A DNA stretch of 19,981 nucleotides from Planctomycetota bacterium (GTDB lineage: Bacteria; Planctomycetota; UBA8108; UBA1146): positions 1-19,981 of the forward strand of contig NZJA01000072.1 in assembly GCA_002691835.1 (NCBI GenBank), given 5' to 3'. Positions 5,906 to 19,981 of the stretch are shown in pieces (positions within the stretch are counted from its first letter, which is position 1; each line of letters begins with the position of its first letter). The translations under genes were made by a program, and so were the position numbers. Below the pieces are notes generated by a model. That model made no database searches and was not told the DNA's origin. It saw nothing but the letters and a program-made list of their open reading frames with translations.

Positions 5906-5932
5906 TCGCTCCAGCTTCGACTCTCTCCAGGC

Positions 5933-6331
5933 CTACTTTCGGGTGGTCGGCAATCCACGGGAGTTCCAGCCAGGAAAGGTGATGTTTCCAAGAACATCGG
6001 TTTCGCCGATGTATCCACCCCGCATGTCATGAAGATTATTAAAGCCTTTTTCCGAGAGCAGGTCGGCGGCTTTTTGAGAGCGTCCACCTTTTTGGCAACC
6101 CAAAATAATCTTTGTGTCGGACTGGAATTCGTCCTCGACACAATTGACGAAATTGGGATTCATTTTTAAGCCGACTCCTCCTTCACCCCGAATCATAATT
6201 GGGATGTTTGTGGAATTGGGGACGTGACCTTCAACAAACTCTTCAGGCATCCGGACATCGAGATAATGAAATCCCTGCTCCGATTGCAATAGGTCATGAG
6301 CCTTGTCTGGATCGATGCGTTTAATAACCAT
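5933..6331 (-). CDS. Single-domain rhodanese-like protein
   Basis: A 132-residue stand-alone rhodanese domain, probably cytosolic. It has the N-terminal YLDVRMPEEFVEGHVPNS signature (23-40) and the active-site loop CQKGGRS with catalytic C79, so sulfur transfer or persulfide carriage is likely. The C-terminal GGY and FPGW motifs are also typical. An ATG 10 codons further upstream (6361) is in frame, but the ATG at 6331 is preferred because GGGGGAG sits four bases before it and homologous domains begin close to this point. A distinctive insertion (about 47-72) lies before the active-site strand. Its 3' end faces the SDR stop 27 bp away; upstream is a gene-free gap holding an 11-bp tandem repeat. 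The sulfur donor and acceptor are unknown. Confidence 0.85.
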   Translation of the reverse strand: MVIKRIDPDKAHDLLQSEQGFHYLDVRMPEEFVEGHVPNSTNIPIMIRGEGGVGLKMNPNFVNCVEDEFQSDTKIILGCQKGGRSQKAADLLSEKGFNNLHDMRGGYIGETDVLGNITFPGWNSRGLPTTRK

Positions 6332-6704
6332 GTTTCTCCCCCAATCTCTCCTCATTGTCATCGGCTGACACGCTTCAAGTATGAGTCAGCAGTCTGTGAG
6401 CGAACTTCTTGAGAACTTCTTGAAAACTTCTCATTGGAAGCGATCTCGCGACAGATCCTGCCGGTGAAGATACTGGTTCGCCTCCGAAGTGTGGCTGCTC
6501 ACCATGGTCCCGATCTCCCTGCATCATCCATTCTATTCCGAAGGGTGTCAACCGGCCGCATCCAGCCTGATATAAGGGATATCGGCTAACTGTGGCCAAT
6601 CAGTCGAGTTCGCTGGGCAAGGCCGGTGCGCTCGGTGGGAGGCGACAGATGGAAATGGGGTCGCAAGGGGATTGGGGTAAGCCCAAGGGGGGATCAGTGG
6701 GGGA
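6332..6704. other. Gene-free stretch of about 370 bp
   Basis: This lies between the start of the rhodanese gene and the 3' end of the CPBP protease gene, both on the minus strand. Short open frames exist on both strands, but none has a Shine-Dalgarno sequence, a recognisable domain or plausible composition. The rhodanese promoter should be here. The visible structure is an 11-bp tandem repeat near 6402-6434 and a G-rich 11-bp repeat that begins near 6691 and runs into the 3' end of the protease gene. No strong hairpin followed by a T-run was found. Confidence 0.6.
6402..6434. repeat. 11-bp tandem repeat, about three copies
   Basis: GAACTTCTTGA occurs twice exactly, back to back (6402-6412 and 6413-6423), followed by a third, degenerate copy, AAACTTCTCAT (6424-6434). 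The unit is about one helical turn, so identical bases fall on the same DNA face. It lies about 70-100 bp upstream of the rhodanese start codon, where an operator or activator site could be. Confidence 0.6.
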
Positions 6705-6734
6705 TCAGTGGGGGTTCAGCAGAGGATCAGAAGC
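6691..6734. repeat. 11-bp G-rich tandem repeat across the 3' end of the CPBP gene
   Basis: GGATCAGTGGG is repeated exactly at 6691-6701 and 6702-6712 and then decays: GGTTCAGCAGA (6713-6723) and GGATCAGAAGC (6724-6734). The stop codon of the CPBP protease gene (ending at 6705) lies inside the array, so the last ten or so residues of that protein are encoded by repeat units. Loss or gain of one 11-bp unit would shift the reading frame and change the C-terminus. Confidence 0.6.
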
Positions 6735-7298
6735 GGGGTTTGCTTTTCGGTTCCCACGGGTCAGAACCCAAAGGCTGGTCAGATTGATAAGAAAATGAGC
6801 GGCAACGCAGCCCGGAATACCAAAGTGAGGGTTTTCGGCCAGATATCCCAAAAACAGACCTCCAAGAATCGCCACAAAAACCCAGATTCGAAGTTCACGG
6901 AGTCCTGTCCAATGAGCCAGACCAAAGATCAGGCTCGTGAGCCACAAACCCAGGTATGGCTGAAGGAGTGCCCTGAAGAGCAGCTCTTCTGAAATGGATG
7001 AGATCAGGGCGACGAAGAAAATCTCCTTTAGATTCCAGCCTTCAAACTGTTGCGCCAGAGTCTCGCTCAGCTTCCTGAGGGCGGGGCTGAACCAGTGAGC
7101 GACGATCTGAACGAATTGGACTCCGACACCGGCCAGAGCGCCCAAAGCCAGAGAAAGAACCAGGGCCGTAAATGAATCGATCTTAAAGAAATCGATACCC
7201 CGAATGAGAAAGAGTGCAAGAGTGGAAATGACGGCGAGGAATCCATGAGTGATCATCGCAGTATTGAAGAGTTGGCTGGGTGAGGACAGAGTTCTCAA
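6705..7298 (-). CDS. CPBP family intramembrane metalloprotease (CAAX protease/Abi type)
   Basis: A 197-residue polytopic membrane protein with hydrophobic segments at about 18-34, 42-66, 93-115, 118-130, 136-154 and 161-180. The three metalloprotease motifs are present: SEELLFRA (E104, E105, R109), FGLAHW (H129) and AAHFLINL (H168, N172). Family members act as membrane-embedded glutamate/histidine proteases in prenyl-protein processing, bacteriocin immunity or regulated proteolysis; the substrate here is unknown. The start is TTG and overlaps the queG stop as TTGA (7295-7298). AGGAG nine bases upstream supports translation from this codon, coupled to queG. The C-terminal tail is built from an 11-bp DNA repeat and ends NPASDPLLNPH. 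Confidence 0.85.
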   Translation of the reverse strand: MRTLSSPSQLFNTAMITHGFLAVISTLALFLIRGIDFFKIDSFTALVLSLALGALAGVGVQFVQIVAHWFSPALRKLSETLAQQFEGWNLKEIFFVALISSISEELLFRALLQPYLGLWLTSLIFGLAHWTGLRELRIWVFVAILGGLFLGYLAENPHFGIPGCVAAHFLINLTSLWVLTRGNRKANPASDPLLNPH

Positions 7299-8263
7299 GT
7301 AGTTTTCTCCTGATCTCCCTTTTCGCGAATCAGTTGTTGGGCATTCCGTTGCAGTCCTTGCAAGCCCGTTCTTGTGACAGGGGTTCCTGCGAAAAACTCA
7401 AGGTATTGCTCGTGGGAGAGATCTAATATTTTTTCGGCTGACTCGGGTGCACTTCGGGGTTTGAGGTCTTCATGGATTTCTGGCGAGATTCGGGCAGGTC
7501 GACTATTCCATGGGCATACCTCTTGGCAAATGTCACAGCCAAATAGCCAGCCGTGCAGGGAGGCCTCTTTAGGAAGCTCTCCTCGGTGTTCAATGGTCCA
7601 GTATGAGATGCATTTTCTGGCATCAATCGACCTCGGTTTGACGATGGCAGAAGTTGGACAAGCGTCAATGCAACGGGTGCAGCTGCCGCAGTGATCCGTT
7701 ACGGGGGTCGTTGTTGGATATGTTCGGTCTGTCACGATTCCACCCAGAAAAAACCAGCTACCAATCTCTCGATCGATCAATAGCCCGTTTTTTCCGATCC
7801 AGCCCAGCCCTGAGATCTCTGCCCAATCTCTTTCAAGAATTGGGGAGGAGTCGACGCAATACCAAGTCTTCCACTTTCCCGAATCCGAAATGTAGTGGCT
7901 TAATTTCTTAAGAAGGGGAGCCATCACCTTGTGATAGTCTCTTCCACGTGCATAACGGGCTATGCGAGGTGCTGAATCGTTCAATTCCGGTTGGTCTGAG
8001 TAGGGTAGGCAGACCATCACGATGCTTTGAGCACCTTCCAGTGTGAGAGTGGGATCGAGTCGCCTCTCGGTGTTCTTTTTCATCCATTCCATGCCGGCAT
8101 GCATGCCATTGTCGATCCAGTTCATGAATCGATCAGCATGAGGGGAGACACCCGCACGGGAGACTCCCAATGAATAGAACCCGAGATTTCGGGCCTCTTG
8201 CAGGAGATCTTCCAGCTCAGAATTATCTCTGTTGTTCGGAGTGGGTATCATGGGAGCTTCCAT
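7295..8263 (-). CDS. queG: Epoxyqueuosine reductase QueG
   Basis: QueG is a cobalamin- and Fe-S-dependent enzyme that reduces epoxyqueuosine to queuosine in the anticodon wobble position of tRNAs with GUN anticodons. The 322-residue protein has the expected layout: an N-terminal cobalamin-binding part with RYARGRDYHKVM (103-114), the catalytic-loop Asp in CVDSSPILERDWAE (D138), WIGKNGLLI (155-163), and two [4Fe-4S] motifs, CGSCTRCIDACP (Cys192, 195, 198, 202) and CDICQEVCP (Cys243, 246, 250), with Cys218 as the remaining cluster ligand. The start could be the ATG at 8263 or one four codons later (8251); neither has a strong Shine-Dalgarno. It is divergent from the UbiA-family gene and translationally coupled to the CPBP protease gene. 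Function is secure. A de novo queuosine pathway (QueCDEF, Tgt, QueA) is implied elsewhere, since none of those genes is in this window. Confidence 0.95.
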   Translation of the reverse strand: MEAPMIPTPNNRDNSELEDLLQEARNLGFYSLGVSRAGVSPHADRFMNWIDNGMHAGMEWMKKNTERRLDPTLTLEGAQSIVMVCLPYSDQPELNDSAPRIARYARGRDYHKVMAPLLKKLSHYISDSGKWKTWYCVDSSPILERDWAEISGLGWIGKNGLLIDREIGSWFFLGGIVTDRTYPTTTPVTDHCGSCTRCIDACPTSAIVKPRSIDARKCISYWTIEHRGELPKEASLHGWLFGCDICQEVCPWNSRPARISPEIHEDLKPRSAPESAEKILDLSHEQYLEFFAGTPVTRTGLQGLQRNAQQLIREKGDQEKTT

Positions 8264-8299
8264 GGGGGGATCTTAACCGAGGCGGGGGGTTTTGGAGAT

Positions 8300-8305
8300 G
8301 GGGGA
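8300..8305 (+). promoter_or_regulatory. Shine-Dalgarno deciding a TTG start for the UbiA-family gene
   Basis: GGGGGA lies eight bases before TTG at 8314. The only in-frame ATG upstream (8170) is inside queG and would add a 48-residue non-homologous segment rich in Trp and Gly, so the TTG is preferred. Confidence 0.45.
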
Positions 8306-8313
8306 AACCGAAT

Positions 8314-9231
8314 TTGGCCAGTCTTCCTGATACTTCGAGTAATTCGGATCCAAATTACGATTCATGGAGGCCTCTCCTTGAATTGTTGAGAATTCGCCAC
8401 TGGATCAAAGGATTGTTCATTTTACTGCCTTTGCCATTTGCTGTGGCTTCAGGAGTCGATCTTCACCCAGAGAATCTGATTCTTGGGATCCTCGGATTTT
8501 CGTTGGTTTCCTCCTCAGTATATATCTTCAACGACATCCAGGACCGTCACAGAGATCAACACCATCCCTTGAAGTGCCAAAGACCTATTGCGGCTGGAGT
8601 GATCAGGCCAATGGTCGCATTTTGGTGGGGAATCGTTGTTCTAGGGATCGGGATGACGATTCTTGGGTTGCCAGGGATCCTGAAACCCTACTCCCCCGAG
8701 CCATGGTTGTTGGCTCTGATTTATCTCGGCGGAAATGGAATATATACTTTTTGGGCTAGGTCATTGGCTTGGCTGGACGCACTCTTTCTCGCTTCATTCT
8801 TCCTGCTGCGACTCTATTTAGGTTGTACGTTGTCGCAGATTTCTCCGAGTGCAACATTGCTCTCTACAGGGTTTTTATTGGCGTTCTCATTAGCCCTTGG
8901 GAAGCGTTATTCCGAATTGATCTCTGGCTATGACGGGGAGTATCGATCGAGCCTAAATCAATATCGTCAGGAGATATTGGTGAAGATCCTGATTTTGACT
9001 GTCGCTTGTTGTTGGGGCTGTTATCTCTGGTACTGCTGGACTTCTCCGTTGATTTCACAGGAGAGATGGTGGTGGAGTGCGATCGTTTCTGGATTTGGCC
9101 TCTACAAATATATGAACGAAACGATTAGAGAGAGATCTGCGAGGGAACCCGTCGCCATGATTCTTGAATCCATTTGGCCAAGATGGGTTATTCCAATATG
9201 GATAATATTGGTAATTTTGAGTATTGAGTAA
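8314..9231 (+). CDS. UbiA-family prenyltransferase, decaprenyl-phosphate phosphoribosyltransferase-like
   Basis: An integral membrane enzyme of about 305 residues with multiple hydrophobic helices. The first aspartate-rich motif is NDIQDRHRD (73-81), followed directly by QHHPLKCQRPIAAG. The HPxKxRPIAxG extension, the later WLDALFLASFFLLR and the LGKRYSEL segment are characteristic of the UbiA branch that includes DPPR synthase (transfer of phosphoribose from PRPP to a polyprenyl phosphate). This supports a polyprenyl-phosphate pentose role rather than quinone prenylation, but it is a similarity-based inference. The start is placed at TTG 8314 with GGGGGA upstream; the frame is open back to an ATG at 8170 inside queG. 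It is divergent from queG with about 50 bp between them. No partner genes for arabinan or ribosyl-lipid synthesis are next to it, so the acceptor pathway is unknown. Confidence 0.8.
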   Translation: MASLPDTSSNSDPNYDSWRPLLELLRIRHWIKGLFILLPLPFAVASGVDLHPENLILGILGFSLVSSSVYIFNDIQDRHRDQHHPLKCQRPIAAGVIRPMVAFWWGIVVLGIGMTILGLPGILKPYSPEPWLLALIYLGGNGIYTFWARSLAWLDALFLASFFLLRLYLGCTLSQISPSATLLSTGFLLAFSLALGKRYSELISGYDGEYRSSLNQYRQEILVKILILTVACCWGCYLWYCWTSPLISQERWWWSAIVSGFGLYKYMNETIRERSAREPVAMILESIWPRWVIPIWIILVILSIE

Positions 9232-9245
9232 GTATGATTCGAGGC

Positions 9246-9268
9246 TTAACAGGAGATATGACTGTTAA
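9246..9268 (+). other. Inverted repeat after the UbiA-family gene
   Basis: TTAACAG and CTGTTAA form perfect 7-bp arms around 9 nt, 15 bp after the UbiA-family stop codon. The stem is AT-rich and no T-run follows, so a terminator role is doubtful; it could equally be a protein-binding palindrome in this AT-rich gap. Confidence 0.3.
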
Positions 9269-9327
9269 TGTGTTTAACTGACATTTGTGACAGATGATCT
9301 CAAAATTTATTCTTTAGCCACACGTAA

Positions 9328-9356
9328 TTGAACTTCTGTTGGTGAGATTATAAGAT
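9328..9356 (+). promoter_or_regulatory. Candidate sigma70 promoter for the PAC2-family gene
   Basis: TTGAAC (9328-9333) and TAAGAT (9351-9356) are separated by exactly 17 bp, each matching the -35 and -10 consensus at four of six positions. They lie in an AT-rich gap about 75-80 bp before the preferred start codon at 9434. No other promoter evidence is available. Confidence 0.35.
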
Positions 9357-9433
9357 CTAGCTATCTCTTAGCGATGATATAAAACGCTTTGAGGGTTTAT
9401 TTATATTTTATGCAAGATTATTCAGGGGACTTA

Positions 9434-10399
9434 ATGAGCAATAACCAATTCGGGTTTTCTGCACATTTCACGGGTGCTCCCATGCTTGTCGTCGGGTGGC
9501 CTGGATTAGGCGGAGTTGCATCTTCCTGTGTTCGAAGCCTCTCTAATGGGCTTCAGTCCGAAACAGTGGCAGCGATAAACCCCGATTCACATTTTGATTT
9601 CGAAGAAATCCAGGTGAAGAATGGATTAATTTTCCAAGGAGATCTTCCAAAGCTGGTGTTTCAAAGAGTGAAATTAGCTTCCTCATCTGAAATGATATTG
9701 TTTATTCCTGATACTCAAGCGCTTGATAAACCAATGGACTTGGCTCGCTCTGTGATACGACTAGCCATGTCAAAATTTGGTATAGAGACAGTGGTCTCTT
9801 TCGCGGCAACATCCGGAATGCTTGAGCCAGAGGATGAACCTGTCGTTCGATTTGGCACCACTGATTATCATTTGGGAGAGGGCCTCGCAACTTCAGGCAT
9901 TCCACCGCTTCGATCTGATAGACTCGTTGGTTTGAATGGATTAATGATGATCGCCGCTCAGGAATTGGGCGTGAAGGGGGTCTGTTTAGTCTCGGAGATT
10001 CCAGTTTGGGGACTTCACACTCCAAATCCAAAAACAACTCGAGCGTTATTGAAAAGCTTCTGCTCCCTCATGTCTATTAGACTCAACTTTGACCATCTGG
10101 ACGGTCAAATATCGGCACTCGAGGAGAGAATGGTTTCCTTCAGAGATTCATTTTCTAAAAAGGACGATAATGTCTGGAATGAGATTGAAGATTTCTCTTC
10201 AGGTTTCGTCAGTTCGACTGATTCAAGCGATGGTATGGCGGAAGTTACCGCAAAAGAAATTGAAGAAGTTGAACAGTTTTTTAACAGAGCCAAGTTTGAC
10301 CGTAGTCAAACACCGCTTCTGAAAGCTGAGCTTGATCGATTGGGAATTTTCCAGCAATACGAGGATCGGTTCCTGGATCTGTTTCGTGATTTGAGTTAA
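9434..10399 (+). CDS. PAC2 family protein
   Basis: A 321-residue soluble protein whose first two thirds match the PAC2 (proteasome assembly chaperone 2-like) fold. Visible family marks are LVVGWPGLGGVA (18-29), an NPDSHFDFEEIQVKNGLI stretch (49-66), FAATSGML, and near residues 165-200 a NGLMMIAAQELGVKGV segment followed by EIPVW and NPKTTRALLKSF. The last 90 residues are acidic and helical (EIEEVEQFFNRA), as in many bacterial members. PAC2 proteins are chaperones for proteasome subunits in eukaryotes and archaea; the role in bacteria is poorly defined. The start is placed at the ATG at 9434, with AGGGGA four bases upstream; earlier in-frame TTG (9389) and ATG (9410) codons lack a well-spaced Shine-Dalgarno. 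It is a single-gene unit, with a possible sigma70 promoter upstream and a strong terminator downstream. Confidence 0.8.
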   Translation: MSNNQFGFSAHFTGAPMLVVGWPGLGGVASSCVRSLSNGLQSETVAAINPDSHFDFEEIQVKNGLIFQGDLPKLVFQRVKLASSSEMILFIPDTQALDKPMDLARSVIRLAMSKFGIETVVSFAATSGMLEPEDEPVVRFGTTDYHLGEGLATSGIPPLRSDRLVGLNGLMMIAAQELGVKGVCLVSEIPVWGLHTPNPKTTRALLKSFCSLMSIRLNFDHLDGQISALEERMVSFRDSFSKKDDNVWNEIEDFSSGFVSSTDSSDGMAEVTAKEIEEVEQFFNRAKFDRSQTPLLKAELDRLGIFQQYEDRFLDLFRDLS

Positions 10400-10414
10400 T
10401 CAGAAAATGAAAAA

Positions 10415-10454
10415 AAAGAAGCCCCGTCATGTCTTTGCATGACGGGGCTTCTTT
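10415..10454. terminator. Strong bidirectional Rho-independent terminator
   Basis: A perfect 17-bp stem has left arm 10415-10431 (ending GCCCCGTCATG) and right arm 10438-10454 (starting CATGACGGGGC) around a 6-nt TCTTTG loop. On the minus strand the stem is followed by a long T-run, a strong terminator for the dockerin gene ending at 10480. On the plus strand the T-tract is short (CTTCTTTG...TTT), but the stem should still stop transcription of the PAC2 gene ending at 10399. It sits between the two convergent genes. Confidence 0.9.
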
Positions 10455-10479
10455 GAATTTCGGGGTAAAAGCTATCCGT

Positions 10480-11364
10480 CTAGAGCCCCTGAGCGCAATC
10501 GAGATTGTCGCTGGTTAAATCTTCTCCGGGGTTAGGGAACGGAAACCAAGGCCCAGGACCGTCGAGGAAAAACCAATACAGAAGAAAGATGGCGTCTGAG
10601 ACATCGGAAATACCGTCATCGTTGGCATCTCCTGAGTCCATACATTCAGGTAGGGGGCCAGAAAGGAATGTGTAATCCAGGTGGTAGATCACATCAGCGA
10701 GATCCACCATGGCATCCATATTGACATCCCCACGGATAAACAATTCCGGCTCCGGCGGAATAACGATTTCCAGAGATCCCGGTAAAAGCGTATCTACAGC
10801 TACTGAAGAAGTGCCAAAGACGAGCATATTACTGATGGGGGGGGTTCCGAAGCCGTCCTGTGGAACAAACTCAATGACCGATGGTGTTGCTGTCGCTAGA
10901 GTCGTGCCTCTGAGAAATGAGATTTCCTGTGGATAGCCCAATGAAGGTAAGGTTTGACCGTTAAATGGTGGGAGAGCATCAAAGAGAACTCCGCATATGA
11001 TGGTTCCTGCGGAATAGTCAATTTGTTCTTGGACATATTCTGCTGTGATGGCTCCTGCCAAAGTTCCTTCCACATCGATCAGCATATCATTGATTGGGAA
11101 CGGGGTTGGCCCGGAAAAGCCGATTGAGAAACTGAATCCAGCAATCGTCCCTGACCAGTCTCCAATGATGGGGATGGCTACTTCTTGACCAGGTTGTGCC
11201 GTCAGAGAACCAACACCTATCGTCGTCGATTGTGCCTGGATCGATCCTCCGATCCACAAAGACAGAAATACACCAAGCCACCCGGTTAGGGGAAGCCTGT
11301 GCCGGTGGTTGCTACTCAAAATGAGGGCATGTTGAATGCCGTCTTGTTGAGGTGATTGATTCAT
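10480..11364 (-). CDS. Secreted protein with cohesin-like domain and paired dockerin-type repeats
   Basis: A 294-residue exported protein. A basic N-terminus is followed by a hydrophobic segment (about 27-42) and a signal-peptidase site at IQA-Q. The next 150 residues (TTIGVGSLTAQPGQEVAIPI onward) look like a beta-sandwich of the cohesin/carbohydrate-binding type. After a short Pro-rich linker come two dockerin type I-like calcium repeats, RGDVNMDAMVDLADVI (D213, N215, D217, D221, D224) and SGDANDDGISDVSDAI (about 243-258), ending in PFPNPGEDLTSDNLDC. In planctomycetes such proteins are cell-surface or extracellular; no enzymatic domain is visible. The ATG at 11364 is chosen because GAGGT precedes it closely and it gives a proper signal peptide, unlike an upstream in-frame start at 11481. 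The first calcium loop has Ala where Gly is usual. It diverges from aconitase. Confidence 0.75.
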   Translation of the reverse strand: MNQSPQQDGIQHALILSSNHRHRLPLTGWLGVFLSLWIGGSIQAQSTTIGVGSLTAQPGQEVAIPIIGDWSGTIAGFSFSIGFSGPTPFPINDMLIDVEGTLAGAITAEYVQEQIDYSAGTIICGVLFDALPPFNGQTLPSLGYPQEISFLRGTTLATATPSVIEFVPQDGFGTPPISNMLVFGTSSVAVDTLLPGSLEIVIPPEPELFIRGDVNMDAMVDLADVIYHLDYTFLSGPLPECMDSGDANDDGISDVSDAIFLLYWFFLDGPGPWFPFPNPGEDLTSDNLDCAQGL

Positions 11365-11561
11365 GTGACCTCTTTCCCTGCACCGGAATCTCTGAAGCCA
11401 ACATCGTGGCTCCCTAAATCTGGAGGCGGGCATTTTGTCAACAATTCGCAGTCCGGAATCACTCCCGTGTATACAGATCATGGGATACGATCTTGTCGAT
11501 TGAATAGACGGACTTCCGAGTATTGAATGATACCCGCTGTGGAGAGAGTCTCAAGTGGGAC

Positions 11562-11566
11562 AGGAG
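11562..11566 (+). promoter_or_regulatory. Shine-Dalgarno deciding the aconitase start
   Basis: AGGAG lies seven bases before ATG at 11574. The frame is open back to a TTG at 11523, but that codon lacks a Shine-Dalgarno and adds residues absent from aconitases. Confidence 0.6.
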
Positions 11567-11573
11567 CCAGCAA

Positions 11574-13829
11574 ATGATTGAAATCGACACGATTCGTGGG
11601 CTTTACGAGAAATCGCTTCAACGCCATGAACGAGCACGCCAGATATTGGGCAGGGGTTTGACTCTTGCTGAGAAGATCCTGTGTGCCCATCTGGAAGTCG
11701 AAAAAGAAGATTTCGATTCGGTTCCTGAGCGCAGCATGAACTATTGTGACTTACGCCCTGACCGAGTTGCAATGCAGGATGCCACTGCCCAAATGGCGAT
11801 CTTGCAGTTCATGCAGGCTGGACTGGACCATGTCCAAGTCCCTTCAACTGTTCACTGCGATCATTTGATTCAGGCTCGCCATGAAGCTCAAGCAGATCTC
11901 GCTGCTGCAGAAGAAGTGAATGCTGAAGTATATCGATTCCTAAGATCTTCCTCTGAGAAATATGGGATTGGTTTCTGGAAACCGGGTTCAGGCATCATTC
12001 ATCAGGTGGTTCTTGAAAATTATGCATTTCCAGGTGGATTGATGATCGGGACTGATAGTCACACTCCTAACGCGGGTGGACTGGGTATGTTGGCAGTTGG
12101 AGTGGGAGGTGCCGATGCGGTCGACGTCATGGCCGGCCTTCCGTGGAATGTTCGTTGGCCGGGTGCGATCGCTGTTCATCTCAAAGGTGAGCTGAATGGT
12201 TGGACTTCTGCAAAAGACGTGATCTTAAAAGTTGCGGGAGAATTGACGGTAAAAGGTGGCACCGGAGCTATCGTCGAATACATCGGTGATGGAGCACGCT
12301 CGATTTCGTGCACTGGTAAAGCAACCATTACAAATATGGGTGCGGAGATCGGTGCAACCTGTTCGGTCTTTCCTTTTGATGAAGCGATGGCTCAATACTT
12401 AGAGTCTACAGATAGGGCTGCTCTTGCAGCTTTGGCCAGAGAACATGCTGATTTACTTGTTCCTGATCCTGAAGTTGAAGAAAACCCGAGCCAATTTTAT
12501 GACCAGGTTCTTGAGATAGACTTAGATACTTTGGAACCCCACGTCGTCGGTCCACATTCACCAGATAGAGCAAGACCAATTTCTGATTTGGGTGCTGAGG
12601 CGAAGGAAAATGGCTGGCCCTTGGAGATCAGTGCCGCATTGATTGGTTCCTGTACGAATTCCTCATACGAAGACATGGATCGTGCGTCCTCTGTCGCTGA
12701 CGAAGCGGTCAAAATGGGTCTTAAGGCCAAGAGCCAGTTCCTTGTTTCTCCAGGATCTACTCAGGTGTTTAAAACAGTGGAGAGGGACGGTCAGGCCGGG
12801 ATTTTTGAAAATTTGGGAGGAACAGTCCTCGCGAATGCTTGTGGTCCTTGTATCGGGCAGTGGCAGCGCGATGACATGGAGAAGGGAACCTCTAACAGTA
12901 TCGTGAGTTCCTTCAACAGGAACTTCCCTGGCAGGAATGATGGAAATGCGCAGACCTTATCATTTATTGCCAGTCCAGATTTGGTGACTGCTTTTGCAAT
13001 TGCAGGGTCTCTTGATTTCAACCCGTTAACCGATCTGATCACGACTCCCGATGGCAAAGAGATTAAACTTCCCACACCGGAAGGCGACAGTCTTCCAGAT
13101 CAAGGTTTCGTCGTTGATACGGAAGGTTTTGTGAATCCGCCTGAAGACGGAACTTCTGTTGTTGTCGACGTTGCGGAAGATAGCGAACGATTGCAATTGT
13201 TGAAGCCATTTCTCCCTCGTGAGTCGGCTCAGCTCATTGAGATGCCGTTGCTTTTCAAGGCGAAGGGGAAGTGCACGACCGATCATATTTCTCCTGCGGG
13301 GCCTTGGTTAAAGTTCAGAGGTCACTTGGAAAATATTTCGCGAAATATGTTCCTGGGTGCGGTGAATGCTTTCCACGATAGTCCTGGCTTGGGCGAAGAT
13401 CCGCAAAGCGGAGCGAGCAAGCCCCTTCACGAGATCGCCTCAGGCTTGAGGGATTCCGGACGTTTCTGGACTGTGGTCGGTGATGAAAATTACGGGGAAG
13501 GTTCCAGTCGAGAGCACGCTGCGATGTGCCCGAGATTCATGGGCTGCGGTGCAGTGATCGTGAGATCATTTGCGCGGATCCACGAAACTAACCTTAAGAA
13601 GCAGGGAATTTTACCGCTTCGATTTAGTGATCCTGCCGATTATGACAAGGTTCTCAAAGGTGACGTGGTCACCATTGAGGGATTAGATCAATTGGCACCA
13701 GGAAGCACTATAACGGCTGTTTTCAGACATGAAGATGGTTCTGAGGATCGAGCCACTTGCAGTCATACTTGTAGTGAAAGTCAGGTGAAGTGGTTTTGGG
13801 CGGGAGCTGCTCTCAACACTCTGACCTGA
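11574..13829 (+). CDS. acn: Aconitate hydratase, mitochondrial type
   Basis: Aconitase isomerises citrate to isocitrate in the TCA cycle using a [4Fe-4S] cluster with one labile iron. The 751-residue length and the segment order match the mitochondrial-type enzyme rather than the roughly 890-residue AcnA/IRP type or AcnB. The cluster cysteines are C360 in GSCTNSS and C423 and C426 in NACGPCIGQW, the same spacing (63 and 3) as in heart aconitase. Active-site segments include VHCDHLIQA, GTDSHTPNAGGLGML, the KCTTDHISPAGPW stretch of the swivel domain and EGSSREHAAM (S644 as catalytic base equivalent). The start is ATG 11574 with AGGAG seven bases upstream. It is transcribed divergently from a secreted dockerin protein, and a second such protein follows 91 bp downstream with its own strong Shine-Dalgarno. 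No other TCA gene is adjacent. The cytosolic role is certain. Confidence 0.95.
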   Translation: MIEIDTIRGLYEKSLQRHERARQILGRGLTLAEKILCAHLEVEKEDFDSVPERSMNYCDLRPDRVAMQDATAQMAILQFMQAGLDHVQVPSTVHCDHLIQARHEAQADLAAAEEVNAEVYRFLRSSSEKYGIGFWKPGSGIIHQVVLENYAFPGGLMIGTDSHTPNAGGLGMLAVGVGGADAVDVMAGLPWNVRWPGAIAVHLKGELNGWTSAKDVILKVAGELTVKGGTGAIVEYIGDGARSISCTGKATITNMGAEIGATCSVFPFDEAMAQYLESTDRAALAALAREHADLLVPDPEVEENPSQFYDQVLEIDLDTLEPHVVGPHSPDRARPISDLGAEAKENGWPLEISAALIGSCTNSSYEDMDRASSVADEAVKMGLKAKSQFLVSPGSTQVFKTVERDGQAGIFENLGGTVLANACGPCIGQWQRDDMEKGTSNSIVSSFNRNFPGRNDGNAQTLSFIASPDLVTAFAIAGSLDFNPLTDLITTPDGKEIKLPTPEGDSLPDQGFVVDTEGFVNPPEDGTSVVVDVAEDSERLQLLKPFLPRESAQLIEMPLLFKAKGKCTTDHISPAGPWLKFRGHLENISRNMFLGAVNAFHDSPGLGEDPQSGASKPLHEIASGLRDSGRFWTVVGDENYGEGSSREHAAMCPRFMGCGAVIVRSFARIHETNLKKQGILPLRFSDPADYDKVLKGDVVTIEGLDQLAPGSTITAVFRHEDGSEDRATCSHTCSESQVKWFWAGAALNTLT

Positions 13830-13879
13830 TATCTGCTTTCCGGTCATTAGGAATGAAGAATTTTAGCCTTCGGTGATAT

Positions 13880-13900
13880 CCTTGAATTATTGAATCAAGG
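13880..13900 (+). other. Small inverted repeat before the second dockerin gene
   Basis: CCTTGA and TCAAGG form a 6-bp stem over an AT-rich 9-nt loop in the 91-bp gap after aconitase, eight bases before the Shine-Dalgarno at 13908. There is no T-run after it, so it may be an RNA leader structure or chance. Confidence 0.25.
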
Positions 13901-13920
13901 AAGATTCGGAGGAGATTCTG

Positions 13921-15747
13921 ATGCTTCATTCCAAAAACGCCCAGTTTGTTCACCAGAAGTTGGCCATCTTCTGCTCTTTGTTACTGACATTGGGAGCGAC
14001 TACGCTATCAGGTCAACAGATCGAGCTGGAATTGAATGTTTCTTCGACGACTTATTCTCCCGGTGAGACTTTTGTCGCCGATCTCGTTCTCTTGAACTCA
14101 GCCGGCCTTTCGGTGCGCGGTCTTCAGCATGCCATTTCTTGGGATTCTGAGTATCTCCAGCTACTGAATGTGGAATTGACCGGTGACCTTGAAGGCTCCC
14201 CTGTTCCAGAAATTCTGATTTGGAATGCACCTCCGCCAGCGGGGCTCGGTGGAGACCAGGGTTGTTCTTCATGGTGGGATGGAACGGGATTAGAGGCCCT
14301 GAGTTTAGGGCTAATTCTCACGGAATCAATTTCAGCAGATGCGGTTCCCCTTGTTCGGATGGAATTTCGCGTCGTTGGTAGTTCCAACAATGGAACGACT
14401 CAAATCTCGACTCCTGATCCGGATCTTTCTTGTGGTTGGATTGGGTCCATTGCAACCGACTCTCAAGGAATGGTCTTGCCAACCAGTACTTCGGTGGTTG
14501 ACCTATCGGTCAGTAATCTTCCTCGTCCCACGGATCTGAACTGCGGGGAGGTAGATCAGACGGTTTATCTGTCGTGGCTCGAACCGGTGGCTTATTCTCA
14601 GATAGAGATTCATCGAGATGGCAATTTCATTGCCCAGCTTCCGGGTGGAGTTCTGAGTTTCGAAGATCCAGATGGAGTCCTTGGAACTGAACGAGCATAT
14701 CGCATCATAGGTATTTCGGGTTCTCTGGAATCACCGGAAGTAAATTGTATTGCAACGATCGATGGAGATTTGGAAACCCCTAGTACATTCAGCTGTGAAC
14801 AGAACGGGGCAACTGTCCTGCTCACATGGGAGAATCTACTTCCCTATGATCAGGTCGAAGTGTTACGCCAGGGCGAAGTTTTATCAGTCTTGGATGCGAC
14901 AGCCAATAGTTTTATCGATCAAAACCCCATACCAGGAACTACTCTGCAATACAGTTTAAGGAGCACTTTATCTGGAATCAGCGCTGAGTCTGAAGTATGC
15001 GAGCTTTTTCTGCCGATTCCTGATGTGTTATTCATTCGCGGAGATGTTGACAGCGACGGAGAACTGAATCTGGTCGACCCAGTGACGACCCTTCAGTACC
15101 TGTTTGTTTTCGGTGATATGCCATGTGCATCAGCCGCTGATTTCAATGATGATGGATCTCTAGACCTTTCCGATGCGGTGAATCTTTTGGATTTCCTGTT
15201 TACAGGGGGAGGGGCACCTGAAGCCCCATTTCCGCTAGCCGGACTCGACCCGACTCCAGACTCTTTAGGCTGTGATGCTGGTTGTGATGACGTTACTTGT
15301 GGGAGTGGATTTCCTGGGGACGAATGTATTAGTGCTCTAACAGTCACTATTGGTGGGAATGAGTTTGATACGAGCTTGATGACTGATTCCTCCGATGCTT
15401 ATGACAACACAGGGTGTGAATCGACCTTCCTCGGTCAAATGTACGCAGATATCTGGCTTGATTTCACTGCACCAGTTTCTGGTGTCGCTTCATTTTCGCT
15501 CTGTACGGAAGATGTGGAATTCGATTCAGATATGGTGATTTATAGCGGTTCTTGTGGGCAGCTTGTTCAGGAAGCCTGTAATGGAGACGGTGTCGATGAA
15601 TTCGGCGAGCCGTGTCCGCTACTGACTTCGCGAATCAGTGATTTCCCGGTTAATCAGGGGGATCACTATTTCATCAGGGTCGGTGGATTCGACTCCGTGA
15701 GCCAGGTTGAACTGGGCCCCGGGGTTCTGACCATCACCATTGACTGA
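13921..15747 (+). CDS. Large secreted protein: cohesin-like, two Fn3-like domains, dockerin repeats, C-terminal beta domain
   Basis: A 608-residue exported protein with a signal peptide (hydrophobic 13-28, cleavage near LSG-QQ). Domains in order are: a cohesin-like beta-sandwich at about 33-197 (LELNVSSTTYSPGETFVADL start); two fibronectin-III-like modules at about 201-283 and 287-366, each opening with Pro-Thr or Pro-Ser and a Cys and containing a Trp core; a dockerin type I-like pair with RGDVDSDGELNLVD (D375, D377, D379, D386) and ADFNDDGSLDLSD (from D407), followed by DPTPDSLGCDAGCDD; and a C-terminal domain (about 465-608) with paired cysteines and aromatic strands resembling bacterial pre-peptidase C-terminal (PPC-like) modules. 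GGAGGAG six bases before the ATG gives a strong start. No catalytic domain is seen, so an adhesion, surface or scaffold role is inferred. Its 3' end overlaps the opposing PPTase gene by 14 bp. Confidence 0.75.
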   Translation: MLHSKNAQFVHQKLAIFCSLLLTLGATTLSGQQIELELNVSSTTYSPGETFVADLVLLNSAGLSVRGLQHAISWDSEYLQLLNVELTGDLEGSPVPEILIWNAPPPAGLGGDQGCSSWWDGTGLEALSLGLILTESISADAVPLVRMEFRVVGSSNNGTTQISTPDPDLSCGWIGSIATDSQGMVLPTSTSVVDLSVSNLPRPTDLNCGEVDQTVYLSWLEPVAYSQIEIHRDGNFIAQLPGGVLSFEDPDGVLGTERAYRIIGISGSLESPEVNCIATIDGDLETPSTFSCEQNGATVLLTWENLLPYDQVEVLRQGEVLSVLDATANSFIDQNPIPGTTLQYSLRSTLSGISAESEVCELFLPIPDVLFIRGDVDSDGELNLVDPVTTLQYLFVFGDMPCASAADFNDDGSLDLSDAVNLLDFLFTGGGAPEAPFPLAGLDPTPDSLGCDAGCDDVTCGSGFPGDECISALTVTIGGNEFDTSLMTDSSDAYDNTGCESTFLGQMYADIWLDFTAPVSGVASFSLCTEDVEFDSDMVIYSGSCGQLVQEACNGDGVDEFGEPCPLLTSRISDFPVNQGDHYFIRVGGFDSVSQVELGPGVLTITID

Positions 15748-16492
15748 GACCGACCTCTTGGGGGTTTCTTTCGATCAGTGTGGTCTCTGAGCCTTGGAAA
15801 ACAATCGCTGACCTCATGTCTTCGCCAGCAGGGGCCGCATGAAAGAACCAAAGGTCTTTCCCGATCTCCGGTAGCTCTGAGGTGATGTTTCCCCCATGTT
15901 GCAAGGGATCGGCGATCCCTGAAAAAAATCTGAGTGGCAGTGTCATTCCAGCTCCATGGGCTTTAACCATGGCTTCCTTTTGAACCCATAAATGAAAAAA
16001 GGAAGTTCTTCGCTGCTTCTCTGGAACCGAGAGCCATTTCTTTCGCTCTTCGACTGCAAAGCATCTCTCTGCCAAATCTTCGATGGGTGATTCTTCCCGA
16101 ATCCTTTCCAGATCGACTCCGACTGGAGATTTTCTGGAAACGGCGAGAAGAGCATAGTCTCCACAATGACTGAGGTTGAAATACAATTGTGGACTGATTT
16201 TGAAATCAGTAGAGAGCTCAGGTTTTCCATGGGGTCCAATGACCAATGGAACTTCTACAGCTGAACAATTTAAATAGGTCGCCAGGATCCAACGCATTCC
16301 TAATCTCGAACGAGTCGCACGTTCGCCGAGTTCAGGGAAAATCCCCTGATCGATTCTTTGTCGTTCATCTTGCGCCAAATCTTTTAGATGGGCACGGGGA
16401 TCCCGAGGGTTTCCATTAAGAGTGAATTTCCAAATATCAAGGTGTGTGATATCGGGGGCCATGTCTGTGTTGTCATTGGCTTGCGAGTTCAT
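15734..16492 (-). CDS. 4'-phosphopantetheinyl transferase (Sfp type)
   Basis: Transfers the phosphopantetheine arm from CoA to a conserved Ser of acyl-, peptidyl- or aryl-carrier proteins, turning them into the holo form. The 252-residue length is that of the Sfp/Gsp class. Diagnostic motifs are FNLSHCGDYALLAV (105-118), VGVDLE (124-129; Mg-binding D127 and E129), and the helix FFHLWVQKEAMVKAHG with W169, K172, E173 and K177. The ATG overlaps the oleD stop as ATGA (16489-16492), so translation is coupled to the ole operon. No carrier protein, PKS, NRPS or fatty-acid synthase gene is in the window. The reason for its place as the last gene of an olefin operon is not established. Sfp-type enzymes are needed by PUFA synthases, and a Pfa-type synthase elsewhere in the genome is one candidate client. 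Confidence 0.9.
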   Translation of the reverse strand: MNSQANDNTDMAPDITHLDIWKFTLNGNPRDPRAHLKDLAQDERQRIDQGIFPELGERATRSRLGMRWILATYLNCSAVEVPLVIGPHGKPELSTDFKISPQLYFNLSHCGDYALLAVSRKSPVGVDLERIREESPIEDLAERCFAVEERKKWLSVPEKQRRTSFFHLWVQKEAMVKAHGAGMTLPLRFFSGIADPLQHGGNITSELPEIGKDLWFFHAAPAGEDMRSAIVFQGSETTLIERNPQEVGLSQW

Positions 16493-17505
16493 GACGAAAT
16501 GGATTCGGCAATAGACGACTGGCCCGAGTGATAGTCTTTAAGTCGTTTCAGACCTTCTGCAGTCGAGATTTTTGGATTCCAACCAAGGTCCCGTTTTGCA
16601 GCTGTGAGATCAAACCAGTGACTGGTTGCCTGTTGATGAACAACAAATCGTGTCACTGGTGGTTCTCCACTAAAAAAGGGAGTTCTGTACAGAGCTTCAA
16701 TAATCCAACCAGCGGCATATGCGAGGGAAGGTGGAATCGAAGGTCGAATCGGGGAAATCCCGGCACAGTCGAGAAACTGATTGATCAGTTCTTCGGGAGG
16801 CGTCGGTTCTTCATTTGAGATGAAATAAGCTTTTCCACGACAATTCGGATTTGTTCGGAGGCTTTCCATGGCACAGAGATGTGCGTCTACAGCATTATCG
16901 ATGTAGCAGGCATCAATCTTCATTCCATTCCGATGGACGAGTTTCAGTTTTCCATTTTTGGCTCGTTCGACGATTCTCGGGTACAGATGCCGGTCTCCGG
17001 GTCCCCAAACGAGATGCGGTCGAATAGAGATGGTGGCCAGTTCACTGGAATTGGCGTCTAGTACTTCTGATTCAGCGATGGCTTTTGTTCTTGGATAATC
17101 AGCCAGATAACTATCGGGATAAGGCTCAGACTCATCGATCCCATTCTGATCGCGTCCTGAGAAGACGACACTGGGAGATGAAGTAAAAACGAGTCTCGGG
17201 ACTTTATTTTGACGACAGGCCTGAATGATATTGCGAGTTCCTTCGACGTTGGCATTGTGAAAGTCATCGGTGGGGCCGGAGATGGCCGCTAGGGCAGCAA
17301 CATGAAAGACAGTATCCACACCTTTCATAGCGTCTGACAATGGACCTAACTGATCGATGCTTCCTTGAAGGTGAGTTCCTTCGAGCTGCAATAGATTTGG
17401 GTATTTACCTCTCTGGTAGGTGACGACTTGATGTCCTTCCTCCAGAAGACGACGTGTAATCTGCCCTCCGATGAATCCACCAGCTCCAGTAATGAGGCAT
17501 TTCAT
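16489..17505 (-). CDS. oleD: OleD, 2-alkyl-3-ketoalkanoic acid reductase (extended SDR)
   Basis: OleD reduces the 2-alkyl-3-ketoacid made by OleA to the 2-alkyl-3-hydroxyacid with NADPH, the second step of long-chain olefin formation. The 338-residue protein is an extended, epimerase-like SDR: TGAGGFIG at 6-13, VFHVAA (66-71), NVEGTRNII (86-94), TSSPSVVF (108-115), Y137 and K141 in DYPRTKA, and RPHLVWGPGDRHL downstream, a segment shared with 3-beta-HSD-like and OleD proteins. Identity as OleD rests on these features plus position: its ATG overlaps the oleC stop by four bases (17502-17505), and oleB precedes oleC. The enzyme family alone would only justify an NAD-dependent epimerase/dehydratase call. 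OleBCD are known to form a cytosolic multienzyme assembly in Xanthomonas. The gene is intact and coupled to the downstream PPTase. Confidence 0.85.
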   Translation of the reverse strand: MKCLITGAGGFIGGQITRRLLEEGHQVVTYQRGKYPNLLQLEGTHLQGSIDQLGPLSDAMKGVDTVFHVAALAAISGPTDDFHNANVEGTRNIIQACRQNKVPRLVFTSSPSVVFSGRDQNGIDESEPYPDSYLADYPRTKAIAESEVLDANSSELATISIRPHLVWGPGDRHLYPRIVERAKNGKLKLVHRNGMKIDACYIDNAVDAHLCAMESLRTNPNCRGKAYFISNEEPTPPEELINQFLDCAGISPIRPSIPPSLAYAAGWIIEALYRTPFFSGEPPVTRFVVHQQATSHWFDLTAAKRDLGWNPKISTAEGLKRLKDYHSGQSSIAESISS

Positions 17506-19145
17506 GAGAGATGCCTGCCAATGAGAGTCGCGAGGGCCTCGCGCTGGATTTTTGCGTTATGGCGGATATCGACAGGGAAAGGTCCCGTGACAACAACATG
17601 TTTGATTTCACGTGTCATGGTAAGACTTTGAGCCTGTTTAAGGAGATCGTTTTGAATTTGTGCAGGGGAAAGATCTGTTTCCTCTTGCGGTTCAACACAA
17701 AGAATCGCTCTTTGATGTCCGGGTGAACCCACGCCCACCAACGCTGTCCTGAAAACTCCGGGATGGTTTTCAAAGATTCTTTCGATCGCAACGGTATCGA
17801 GGGGGCCTGAAGGAGTGATGACTCTTTGGCTAGCCCTTCCTCGGAACCAAATTTTCTGCTCTTTGTCTCGCAATCCGATATCTCCGGTGCGGTGCCAGGT
17901 TTCACCAGTTGAGTCAATAAATTTGTGCTCTTCATTGGCTGTTGGATCAAACAGGTAGCTGCGACTGACTGTCGGACCAGATACCCAGATTTCTCCAACG
18001 GACTCGTCTGGCAATGATTTCCCCACGGGCCGCCCGCCGGGCTCGACGATTTTCAGGTCGATACCTGAAACCTTCTTTCCCAAACAAACTCCCAACCCAG
18101 CGGATGTGGATTCGTGAGTCTCAAGAATTTCGTGATGATCTACATGACAGAGCGGCAGCCCTTCGGTCGCTCCATAGGGTGTTTCGATCCGGGTTTCAAC
18201 AGCAAGGTGGTTTGCGAGAGTTTCAATAGCTCCATGGCGTGCTGGAGCTCCAGCACTGATGACTCTGCGCAGGCCCTTGAGAATGACTCCGGATTTTTCA
18301 AGATAGTTGGAAAGAGAACCAAGAAGAGCGGGTGAAGCAAACAGATTTGTGACCTGATATCGTTCGATCAGGTCAATGAGATGAACAGGGTCAGCTTGGG
18401 CAGGACGCGTGAAATCCATGACGGGAACAGTGGAAGTCATGCCCATTGCGACTCCAAAGAGTCCGAACAGGGGAAATGTCGGTAGATCTACTTCACCAGC
18501 CTGAAGCTGGTGACACTCTGCGAGTGAATCCACCTGCGCTTCGAGTTGCCCATGGTGTGCGATCGCTCCTTTTGCAGGCCCCGTGCTCCCGGATGTAAAT
18601 AGAACTGCAGCCATTTCATCAGTTCCCAGAACGGGGCCCTCATATGGAATCTGTTGAGGAATCTCTTTTCGTAGCGAATCCAGGCTCCACGTCCCTGGCG
18701 GAAATGGTCCTTTTCCGACACCAAAGCGATAGCGGATCGTTCGTCGTCCCCAACCAAGGAGTACTCTGGCCCAGTGAGCTTTACCGATACCGACAAACGC
18801 TTCGGGGGCAGCCCGATTTAGACATGATTTCAATCCTGAGATTCCGAGTCCCGGGTCGACGAGAACGGGAGGAGCACCAATTCGTAATAGGGCAAACGTA
18901 CAAGCCAGAAATTCACGGCCCGGTGGAACCATCAAGACGGTCCGCATTCCGCGACGGATTCCACGAAGCAACAGTGCATGGCAGGTTCGATCTACCAAGG
19001 CGTCTAATTCGGCAAAGGTTCGCTCTTCGCAGCGTCCGTGATGAAATTCACGTATCGCGATCTGATCGGGTGCATTTTGGGCATGATTTCGCAGGCGTCG
19101 ATCAACACCTGCCTGCGCCTGCCCCATTCTGGTCACGGGACTCAA
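17502..19145 (-). CDS. oleC: OleC, beta-lactone synthetase (AMP-forming ligase family)
   Basis: OleC is an acyl-adenylating-superfamily enzyme that uses ATP to close the 2-alkyl-3-hydroxyacid into a cis-beta-lactone. The 547-residue protein shows the superfamily motifs LFTSGSTGPAKGAI (182-195), the OleC-like FPLFGLFG (224-231), YGATE (324-328), HRTGD (418-422), and near the C-terminus PVDIRHNAKI (524-533) with the conserved Lys K532. The RHNAKI ending is typical of OleC rather than of acyl-CoA synthetases. The start is TTG, overlapping the oleB stop as TTGA (19142-19145), with GGGAG six bases upstream; an in-frame ATG six codons later has no Shine-Dalgarno. A fatty acyl-AMP or CoA ligase would be the alternative by family alone, but the neighbours settle the call. 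Confidence 0.9.
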   Translation of the reverse strand: MSPVTRMGQAQAGVDRRLRNHAQNAPDQIAIREFHHGRCEERTFAELDALVDRTCHALLLRGIRRGMRTVLMVPPGREFLACTFALLRIGAPPVLVDPGLGISGLKSCLNRAAPEAFVGIGKAHWARVLLGWGRRTIRYRFGVGKGPFPPGTWSLDSLRKEIPQQIPYEGPVLGTDEMAAVLFTSGSTGPAKGAIAHHGQLEAQVDSLAECHQLQAGEVDLPTFPLFGLFGVAMGMTSTVPVMDFTRPAQADPVHLIDLIERYQVTNLFASPALLGSLSNYLEKSGVILKGLRRVISAGAPARHGAIETLANHLAVETRIETPYGATEGLPLCHVDHHEILETHESTSAGLGVCLGKKVSGIDLKIVEPGGRPVGKSLPDESVGEIWVSGPTVSRSYLFDPTANEEHKFIDSTGETWHRTGDIGLRDKEQKIWFRGRASQRVITPSGPLDTVAIERIFENHPGVFRTALVGVGSPGHQRAILCVEPQEETDLSPAQIQNDLLKQAQSLTMTREIKHVVVTGPFPVDIRHNAKIQREALATLIGRHLS

Positions 19146-19981
19146 ACCAATCTCCCACGAACTCGATTTCTGTTTCTGAACTGCCGAATGATTGGCAGGA
19201 TTTTTTCAGGAAACTCATCTAGCAGGAGATGTCCTGCATCTGGCCAACTGTGAACTTGTGCTTCTGGCCAGAGCTTTTGCCAATGATCTCGGAAATCCGT
19301 ATTGAAGACGGGGTCTTTTTCACCCCAAAGAAGCAGTAAGGGGAGGTGCTTCAAATTTGTCAGATCATTTTCCACTTTGAGAAGAGTTTCCCAAGACGGA
19401 TCAGCAGGACTGACAGGGATATCCTCGACAAATCGATGAATTGCGAGTCGATCTTGAGAGGTCTTGTAGGGAGATTTGTAGCCAGCTTTTTCTGCCCGTG
19501 AAAGCTTTCTCGACTTCACCCCGATAAAGAGAGTCCCTAATAGGAAAGTGTTCAGTTGGCAAATGAGCCATTTTCCGAGAGGGCCTCTTGCCGGTCCCAA
19601 AATTGGCGGGAAAGACATTCCGGGTTGGAGCGGAAATGCAGCAGTGTTTACTGCGACGAGATGGCTGAAGCGATCCGGATTACGACCGGCTGCACCAAAG
19701 CCGATAGCCCCTCCCCAGTCGTGTGCGAGAAGGGTGGCATTTTCTTCGATACCCAAGTGATCCAGTAAGCCTTCAAGATCATCGATACGATCTGCGAGAC
19801 GATAACCGTATTGATCTGGTGAAGGTCGGTCGGAGAGACCACAACCGACATGATCGATGGCGATCACCCTGTTCATCGTAGAGAGCCCACGAATCATGTG
19901 ACGGAAATGGAACGACCAAGTGGGATTTCCATGCACGCAGACGATGGTTGGGCCTTCACCCTCATCGACGTAGTTGATTCG
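19142..19981 (-). CDS. oleB: OleB, beta-lactone decarboxylase (alpha/beta hydrolase; 5' end outside window)
   Basis: OleB removes CO2 from the beta-lactone made by OleC to give the final cis-olefin; it belongs to the haloalkane-dehalogenase-like alpha/beta hydrolases. The frame remains open to the window edge, so about 279 residues are visible and the N-terminus is missing. Counting from the GTG codon at 19936 (Val of the VHGNP oxyanion motif), the visible catalytic features are the Asp nucleophile D73 in AHDWGG, D208 in GEKDPVF as the acid and H236 in DAGHLLLDEFPEKI. The Asp nucleophile, rather than Ser, fits OleB. By sequence alone it could be called a haloalkane dehalogenase; coupling to oleC and oleD decides. 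The stop overlaps the oleC start by four bases. OleA, the thiolase-like first enzyme, is expected upstream, beyond 19981. Confidence 0.88.
   Translation of the reverse strand, partial: RINYVDEGEGPTIVCVHGNPTWSFHFRHMIRGLSTMNRVIAIDHVGCGLSDRPSPDQYGYRLADRIDDLEGLLDHLGIEENATLLAHDWGGAIGFGAAGRNPDRFSHLVAVNTAAFPLQPGMSFPPILGPARGPLGKWLICQLNTFLLGTLFIGVKSRKLSRAEKAGYKSPYKTSQDRLAIHRFVEDIPVSPADPSWETLLKVENDLTNLKHLPLLLLWGEKDPVFNTDFRDHWQKLWPEAQVHSWPDAGHLLLDEFPEKILPIIRQFRNRNRVRGRLV

Follow-up and report, generated by a model that had tools for sequence, protein, structure and literature searches.

The question raised by this locus is why a gene for a 4'-phosphopantetheinyl transferase (PPTase) stands behind oleB, oleC and oleD as the last gene of an olefin operon. 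The window, i.e., the whole stretch of 19,981 nucleotides analysed, belongs to contig NZJA01000072.1 of a Planctomycetota bacterium (assembly GCA_002691835.1). An earlier note, made from the sequence of the window, had regarded the PPTase as part of the ole unit and had proposed that the operon draws its acyl chains from a carrier-bound synthase. The reading favoured here, to which we assign a probability of roughly 85%, is that a Type-I-like pfa-ole operon of an uncultivated planctomycete, making a polyene, has these four genes at its 3' end, and that the PPTase very likely charges the housekeeping acyl carrier protein (ACP) AcpP as well.

According to the open reading frame (ORF) calls, the four genes are arranged head to tail on the minus strand at the end of the window. 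They are oleB (19142-19981; alpha/beta hydrolase of the beta-lactone decarboxylase family, ORF open at the window edge with its 5' end outside), oleC (17502-19145; olefin beta-lactone synthetase type, TTG start), oleD (16489-17505; 2-alkyl-3-oxoalkanoate reductase type, ATG start) and the PPTase gene, read as pfaE (15734-16492; Sfp-type, ATG start). Consecutive genes share 4 nt, at 19142-19145 (oleB stop/oleC start, TTGA), 17502-17505 (oleC stop/oleD start, ATGA) and 16489-16492 (oleD stop/PPTase start, ATGA), in exact agreement with the three junctions given in the earlier note. In profile searches, OleC exceeded the cut-off of PRK09274 (568 bits against 478) and OleB that of Pfam Abhydrolase_1. 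An OleC and an OleD of the families that mark the OleABCD pathway are both predicted in the window, with the specific models under their cut-offs.

Taken alone, the overlaps in the window are weak evidence of linkage. Wherever a gene ends in TGA and the base before it is A, G or T, a 4-nt overlap results; by a rough estimate this holds for a third of neighbouring gene pairs. The ole unit is not alone in having them, since another minus-strand pair, 6705-7298 and 7295-8263, also shares 4 nt (7295-7298). It is the conservation of the junction, not the overlap itself, that exceeds chance.

The PPTase is 252 aa long, exceeds the cut-offs of PF01648 (57.7 bits against 25) and PF22624, carries the motifs GVDLE and WVQKEA, and has Sfp as its closest PDB entry by sequence (5.6e-22); no AcpS model was present among its profile matches. 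The PF01648 match, GVDLE, WxxKEA and a length about twice that of AcpS place it, judging from its sequence, among the Sfp-type enzymes of the W/KEA group, as these motif groups are set out in the accessible part of PMC5605751. For the PPTases of polyunsaturated fatty acid (PUFA) synthases, PfaE, the accessible part of PMC3098273 gives the motifs P0 (hRxhLS), P1a (x(G/D)xP) and P1b ((F/S)NxSH). The window PPTase has P1a as HGKP and P1b as FNLSH, both weak marks that occur in other PPTases as well. It is best read as the putative PfaE of a PUFA synthase feeding OleA.

A total of 20 PPTase homologues was found, and an alignment of the window PPTase with ten of them was scanned against one genome per species. 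Of the 18 loci obtained, 12 carried ole genes; by label they belong to nine planctomycetes, two organisms named plainly as bacterium and one Bacillota, and all are placed in one order of the genome collection. The position of the PPTase was conserved in 12/12 of these relatives (G001-G012). The order oleB-oleC-oleD-PPTase was complete at 11 of the 12 loci, and the remaining one (L006), cut inside oleD, keeps oleD-PPTase. Identities of the closest loci (L001-L004) to the window were 81-83% for OleB, about 76% for OleC, 70-72% for OleD and 60-62% for the PPTase. The six other loci (two Legionella, one Gemmatimonadetes, two Bacteroidaceae and one Clostridia) had only a distant PPTase and were set aside; none of them had an OleB or OleD match, and L015 alone gave a weak OleC match of 24%. 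No plasmid relatives of oleD were found.

The order of G001 has 17 genomes in the collection, and the PPTase follows oleD in 16 of them (the 12 relatives, G157, G250, G259 and G172), which bears out the placement of the PPTase within the ole unit; the contig of the remaining genome, G328, starts within the PPTase gene. The earlier note had suggested a search for the oleD-PPTase junction in related genomes, and a 4-nt overlap was found in the window, in 12/12 relatives and in five of six further planctomycetes measured, as determined with a script that picks the start codon closest to a 4-nt overlap and hence favours such overlaps. The sixth, G126, has a gap of 7 nt, and G055, with about 1.85 kb between oleD and PPTase, was left out of the measurement.

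Upstream of oleB, the relatives carry oleA preceded by very long genes, which were read from 15 further genome stretches. The run pfaD-pfaA-pfaBC-oleA-oleB-oleC-oleD-PPTase lies on one contig in 9 of the 12 relatives, that is, in 9/9 of those whose contigs reach far enough, as expected from the proposal of a carrier-bound synthase; in the other three (G006, G007 and G012) it is broken by contig ends, with pfaD on another contig. In G003, the single relative whose upstream proteins were family-scanned, PfaD scored 571 bits (TIGR02814) and PfaA 1523 bits (TIGR02813), the latter with KS, AT, five PP-binding stretches, KR and PS-DH; PfaBC had KS and four FabA-like stretches, and OleA exceeded the NF006720 cut-off (393 bits against 285). 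Across the relatives pfaBC is one ORF of about 2240-2310 aa, with the acyltransferase motif GHSLG in 9/9 full-length copies, and OleA has NACLG, whose cysteine we take to be the active-site nucleophile, in all 11 clade loci holding oleA. In G001 pfaA is split into two ORFs, either by an assembly error or in reality. With the same script, which favours them, overlaps of 4 nt were obtained along the cluster of the clade, at pfaA/pfaBC in 9/9 loci and at pfaBC/oleA, oleA/oleB, oleB/oleC and oleC/oleD in 11/11 each; pfaD/pfaA has one in 3 of 8 loci measured, the other five having longer overlaps with the start uncertain. By comparison with these relatives, oleA and the pfa genes of the window's organism would lie just beyond the window edge.

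The distribution of the link was then considered across the phylum. An OleA match at E 1e-40 was present in 150 of 392 sampled genomes, 145 of them over the cut-off; the 12 relatives and 80 of the other 138 were examined, mostly the top-ranked ones, and 58 were left out, some of them as the contig ended near oleA. The stretch contained oleA in 91 of the 92 genomes examined, with oleC and oleD downstream in 47. The PPTase comes after oleD at 18 of these 47 loci: immediately at 11 of the clade and in G157, G225, G031, G126, G038 and G062, and at a distance of about 1.85 kb in G055. Every one of the 18 genomes carries pfaD, whereas a PPTase after oleD was found in 0/16 genomes with oleABCD but without pfaD; these counts are not independent, because the rows are related. 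On a tree of OleA, OleC and OleD, the PPTase label needs six changes, two of them forced by well-supported branches, and a branch with support 100 separates the genomes without pfa from those bearing it. Among the 80 other OleA loci (L064-L143), pfaBC was also seen directly before oleA in planctomycetes outside this order, often at loci showing no PPTase behind oleD (11 of the 47 that have oleC and oleD), and the pfa-ole linkage in the phylum is therefore wider than the one Gemmata example of PMC3098273. In G116 (7607-9040 of locus L072) pfaD stands directly behind oleD, where others carry the PPTase.

The ole-linked PPTase was the only PF01648 match in 22/22 linked genomes (16 of the order and seven others, G157 being in both sets), and each of the 17 genomes of the order had exactly one match. 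The same family finds many AcpS-sized ORFs elsewhere in the phylum and detected 10 of 14 positive controls. A search for AcpS with TIGR00516 at E up to 1 found none in 19 genomes, the ole-linked PPTase included, with a model that is not very sensitive, as 9 of 14 positive controls were detected and 5 were over the cut-off. A second PPTase or an AcpS missed by PF01648 is unsupported by this result, and missing contigs are possible in any single metagenome-assembled genome. All genomes are of this kind, so that absence in any single one is weak evidence. Of 294 planctomycetes, 263 had a PF01648 match, and about four in five of those had just one, in many cases within an ORF of AcpS size. Having one PPTase is nothing unusual for the phylum; what is particular here is that it is Sfp-type and lies inside a pfa-ole operon.

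Each of the 12 relatives had one AcpP match. With PF00550 at E up to 0.001, 12/12 genomes gave one AcpP-sized ORF and 3-5 matches within one long ORF (PfaA), and nothing else; another carrier system, such as a nonribosomal peptide synthetase or another polyketide synthase, is unsupported as a client of the PPTase. In the relatives, two client systems of the enzyme can be recognised, and nothing that could stand in for it. It very likely also charges AcpP, because it is the only PPTase found in the related genomes, and the cell probably cannot do without it. The genome G328 (locus L162, a 2.2-Mb assembly) has the PPTase at its contig start, followed by the same downstream genes as the relatives; it had no OleD match and no PfaA over the cut-off, and it was absent among the OleA matches listed. 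It was rejected as proof of a housekeeping role, with PPTase kept and pfa-ole lost, since the contig starts inside the PPTase gene and loss and missing sequence are inseparable in an assembly of this size.

These same data lend themselves to a narrower explanation, that the PPTase is only a general AcpS substitute parked behind oleD, whose place in the operon is irrelevant to hydrocarbon synthesis. The sole PPTase in the linked genomes, the lack of AcpS matches and the one housekeeping AcpP per relative all agree with it, and in G062 ole and the PPTase are together on one contig and pfaD on a different one. We consider it improbable, given that the ACPs of PfaA, the only other carriers found, are encoded in the same gene run, that a PPTase behind oleD was confined to genomes with pfaD (in related rows), and that Geobacter has the same order with pfaE. 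The earlier note had set the mere AcpS substitute against its own proposal; the substitution is supported by the sole PPTase and the AcpP of the relatives, but not the word 'merely', and the PPTase probably does both jobs, because it is the only one found in relatives that also carry a housekeeping AcpP.

To our knowledge, PcpS of Pseudomonas is the only PPTase of its host. It charges AcpP1 (accessible part of PMC5686131), and the cyanobacterial Sfp-type enzyme SPPT charges fatty-acid ACPs, an attempted deletion of the Synechocystis SPPT having failed (PMC5605751). The PPTase studied here resembles both in being an Sfp-type enzyme proposed to act on a fatty-acid ACP; unlike theirs, its gene occupies the final position in a secondary-lipid operon.

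The closest known counterpart is the cluster of Geobacter bemidjiensis (Bem), with pfaD, A, B, C, oleA, B, C, D and pfaE in tandem, in an organism that makes C31:9 (accessible part of PMC4882568). The order in the relatives, with pfaD, pfaA, pfaB/C, oleA-D and the PPTase last, is like it, and the view of the earlier note that the link is not explained by what is known does not hold against this published case. The present cluster differs in the host phylum, in the PPTase being the only one found in its genomes, and in a product predicted from the genes. As far as the accessible part of PMC3098273 goes, Type I has the pfaBC fusion and occurs in Deltaproteobacteria and Gemmata (its one planctomycete in 2011), has the PPTase most often in direct proximity and was proposed to feed olefin synthesis; out of 80 genomes, 44 had ole along with pfa or pfa-like genes. 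The relatives share the pfaBC fusion, the mark of Type I, and together with the gene order this suggests membership in Type I. The Shewanella system of pfaA-E and oleABCD is similar in that a Pfa synthase supplies OleA, the PPTase is PfaE and a C31 polyene is expected; it differs in having pfaB and pfaC separate (Type A, PMC3098273) and in that the remaining pfa genes may be located away from ole and pfaE. A search of the open-access literature, covering mostly titles and the starts of abstracts, with subscription papers and supplements outside its scope, revealed no report of a sole PPTase lying within a pfa-ole operon, and none of this cluster in Planctomycetota other than Types I and J of PMC3098273. 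The window holds the end of a cluster whose kind was already known from other hosts, and the sole PPTase is the less expected part.

The cluster very probably makes long polyunsaturated hydrocarbons. In the scheme proposed, whose Ole and Pfa steps follow the chemistry of the families (partly general knowledge, partly the accessible part of PMC6463001), the PPTase would turn the tandem ACPs of PfaA into the holo form, as its family and operon suggest, and the Pfa synthase would build a polyunsaturated acyl chain. OleA would condense two such chains head to head, OleD would reduce the beta-keto acid, OleC would close the beta-lactone, and OleB would decarboxylate it, giving a long polyene that is most likely C31:9 or a related compound. 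The PPTase would in addition charge the AcpP of type II fatty-acid synthesis. PfaA-E with OleA give a 31:8 ketone in Escherichia coli (PMC6463001).

It may be asked whether the Ole enzymes instead use ordinary acyl-CoA or acyl-ACP of type II synthesis, the Pfa product going elsewhere, as into membrane lipid. Ole without Pfa is common in the phylum, as the 16 planctomycetes with oleABCD and no pfaD illustrate, and Photobacterium profundum SS9 carries both operons with no detectable polyunsaturated hydrocarbon, according to the accessible part of PMC6463001. Set against this are the 4-nt pfaBC/oleA overlap in all clade loci with both genes, the well-supported branch that splits off the Ole proteins of pfa-less genomes, and the product C31:9 of both Shewanella oneidensis (PMC6463001) and G. 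bemidjiensis (PMC4882568); this explanation also appears unlikely. That the genes are chance neighbours with no functional link has a negligible probability and is rejected by conservation. Overlaps of 4 nt are indeed common in bacteria, as the one at 7295-7298 illustrates, but oleD and PPTase are adjacent in 16/17 genomes of the order, and other lineages of the phylum show this adjacency as well.

Several observations weigh against the reading of the four genes as the end of a pfa-ole operon. The window, which ends within oleB, contains no oleA and no pfa gene. OleC scored 469 and 464 bits with two olefin beta-lactone synthetase models, under their cut-offs of 900 and 850; the best matches of OleD were two 2-alkyl-3-oxoalkanoate reductase models at 372 bits each, under a cut-off of 580; and OleB reached 160 bits with haloalkane-dehalogenase models, under a cut-off of 241. 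The P0 motif of PfaE is replaced by MRWILA, with alanine in place of the final serine, in the window PPTase; some relatives have it complete, as LRSILS (G007-G009) or LRKILS (G012). Of 31 pfa-bearing loci with oleC and oleD, 13 showed no PPTase after oleD (G293, whose contig ends 2 nt past oleD, is unjudgeable among them, and G221 and G119 have less than 2 kb after oleD), and the link is therefore not obligatory. Finally, pfaD is on a different contig from ole-PPTase in G062 and about 37 kb from it in G038.

Downstream, the unit ends at 15734-15747, where the PPTase gene overlaps tail to tail by 14 nt with a convergent gene for a 608-aa protein (13921-15747, plus strand). The same overlap is 14 nt in 11 of the 12 relatives and in G328, and 20 nt in G005. 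The genes past the PPTase (5111-15747), among them those for the 608-aa secreted-looking protein, an aconitase, a protein with dockerin-like repeats and several more, keep their order in the relatives, including the more distant G328; gene names not based on similarity to the window are a reading, not the result of a family search.

We incline, by a narrow margin over even odds, to the view that across the whole order the cell's only PPTase, without which it could make no fatty acids, is encoded at the end of a polyene-hydrocarbon operon by a translationally coupled gene. If this is true, an essential gene would hold the 'secondary' hydrocarbon pathway in place; the pathway would be expressed together with primary lipid synthesis, and its loss or silencing would be difficult. 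The data place a PUFA-synthase-plus-olefin operon ending in its own PPTase across an uncultivated planctomycete order, whose members are predicted to be producers of C31 polyenes, a possible lipid biomarker. With a single PPTase, a single AcpP and a single multi-ACP synthase in each genome, as far as can be judged from the assemblies, the order offers a clean natural case for how an essential activator gets tied to a secondary-lipid operon.

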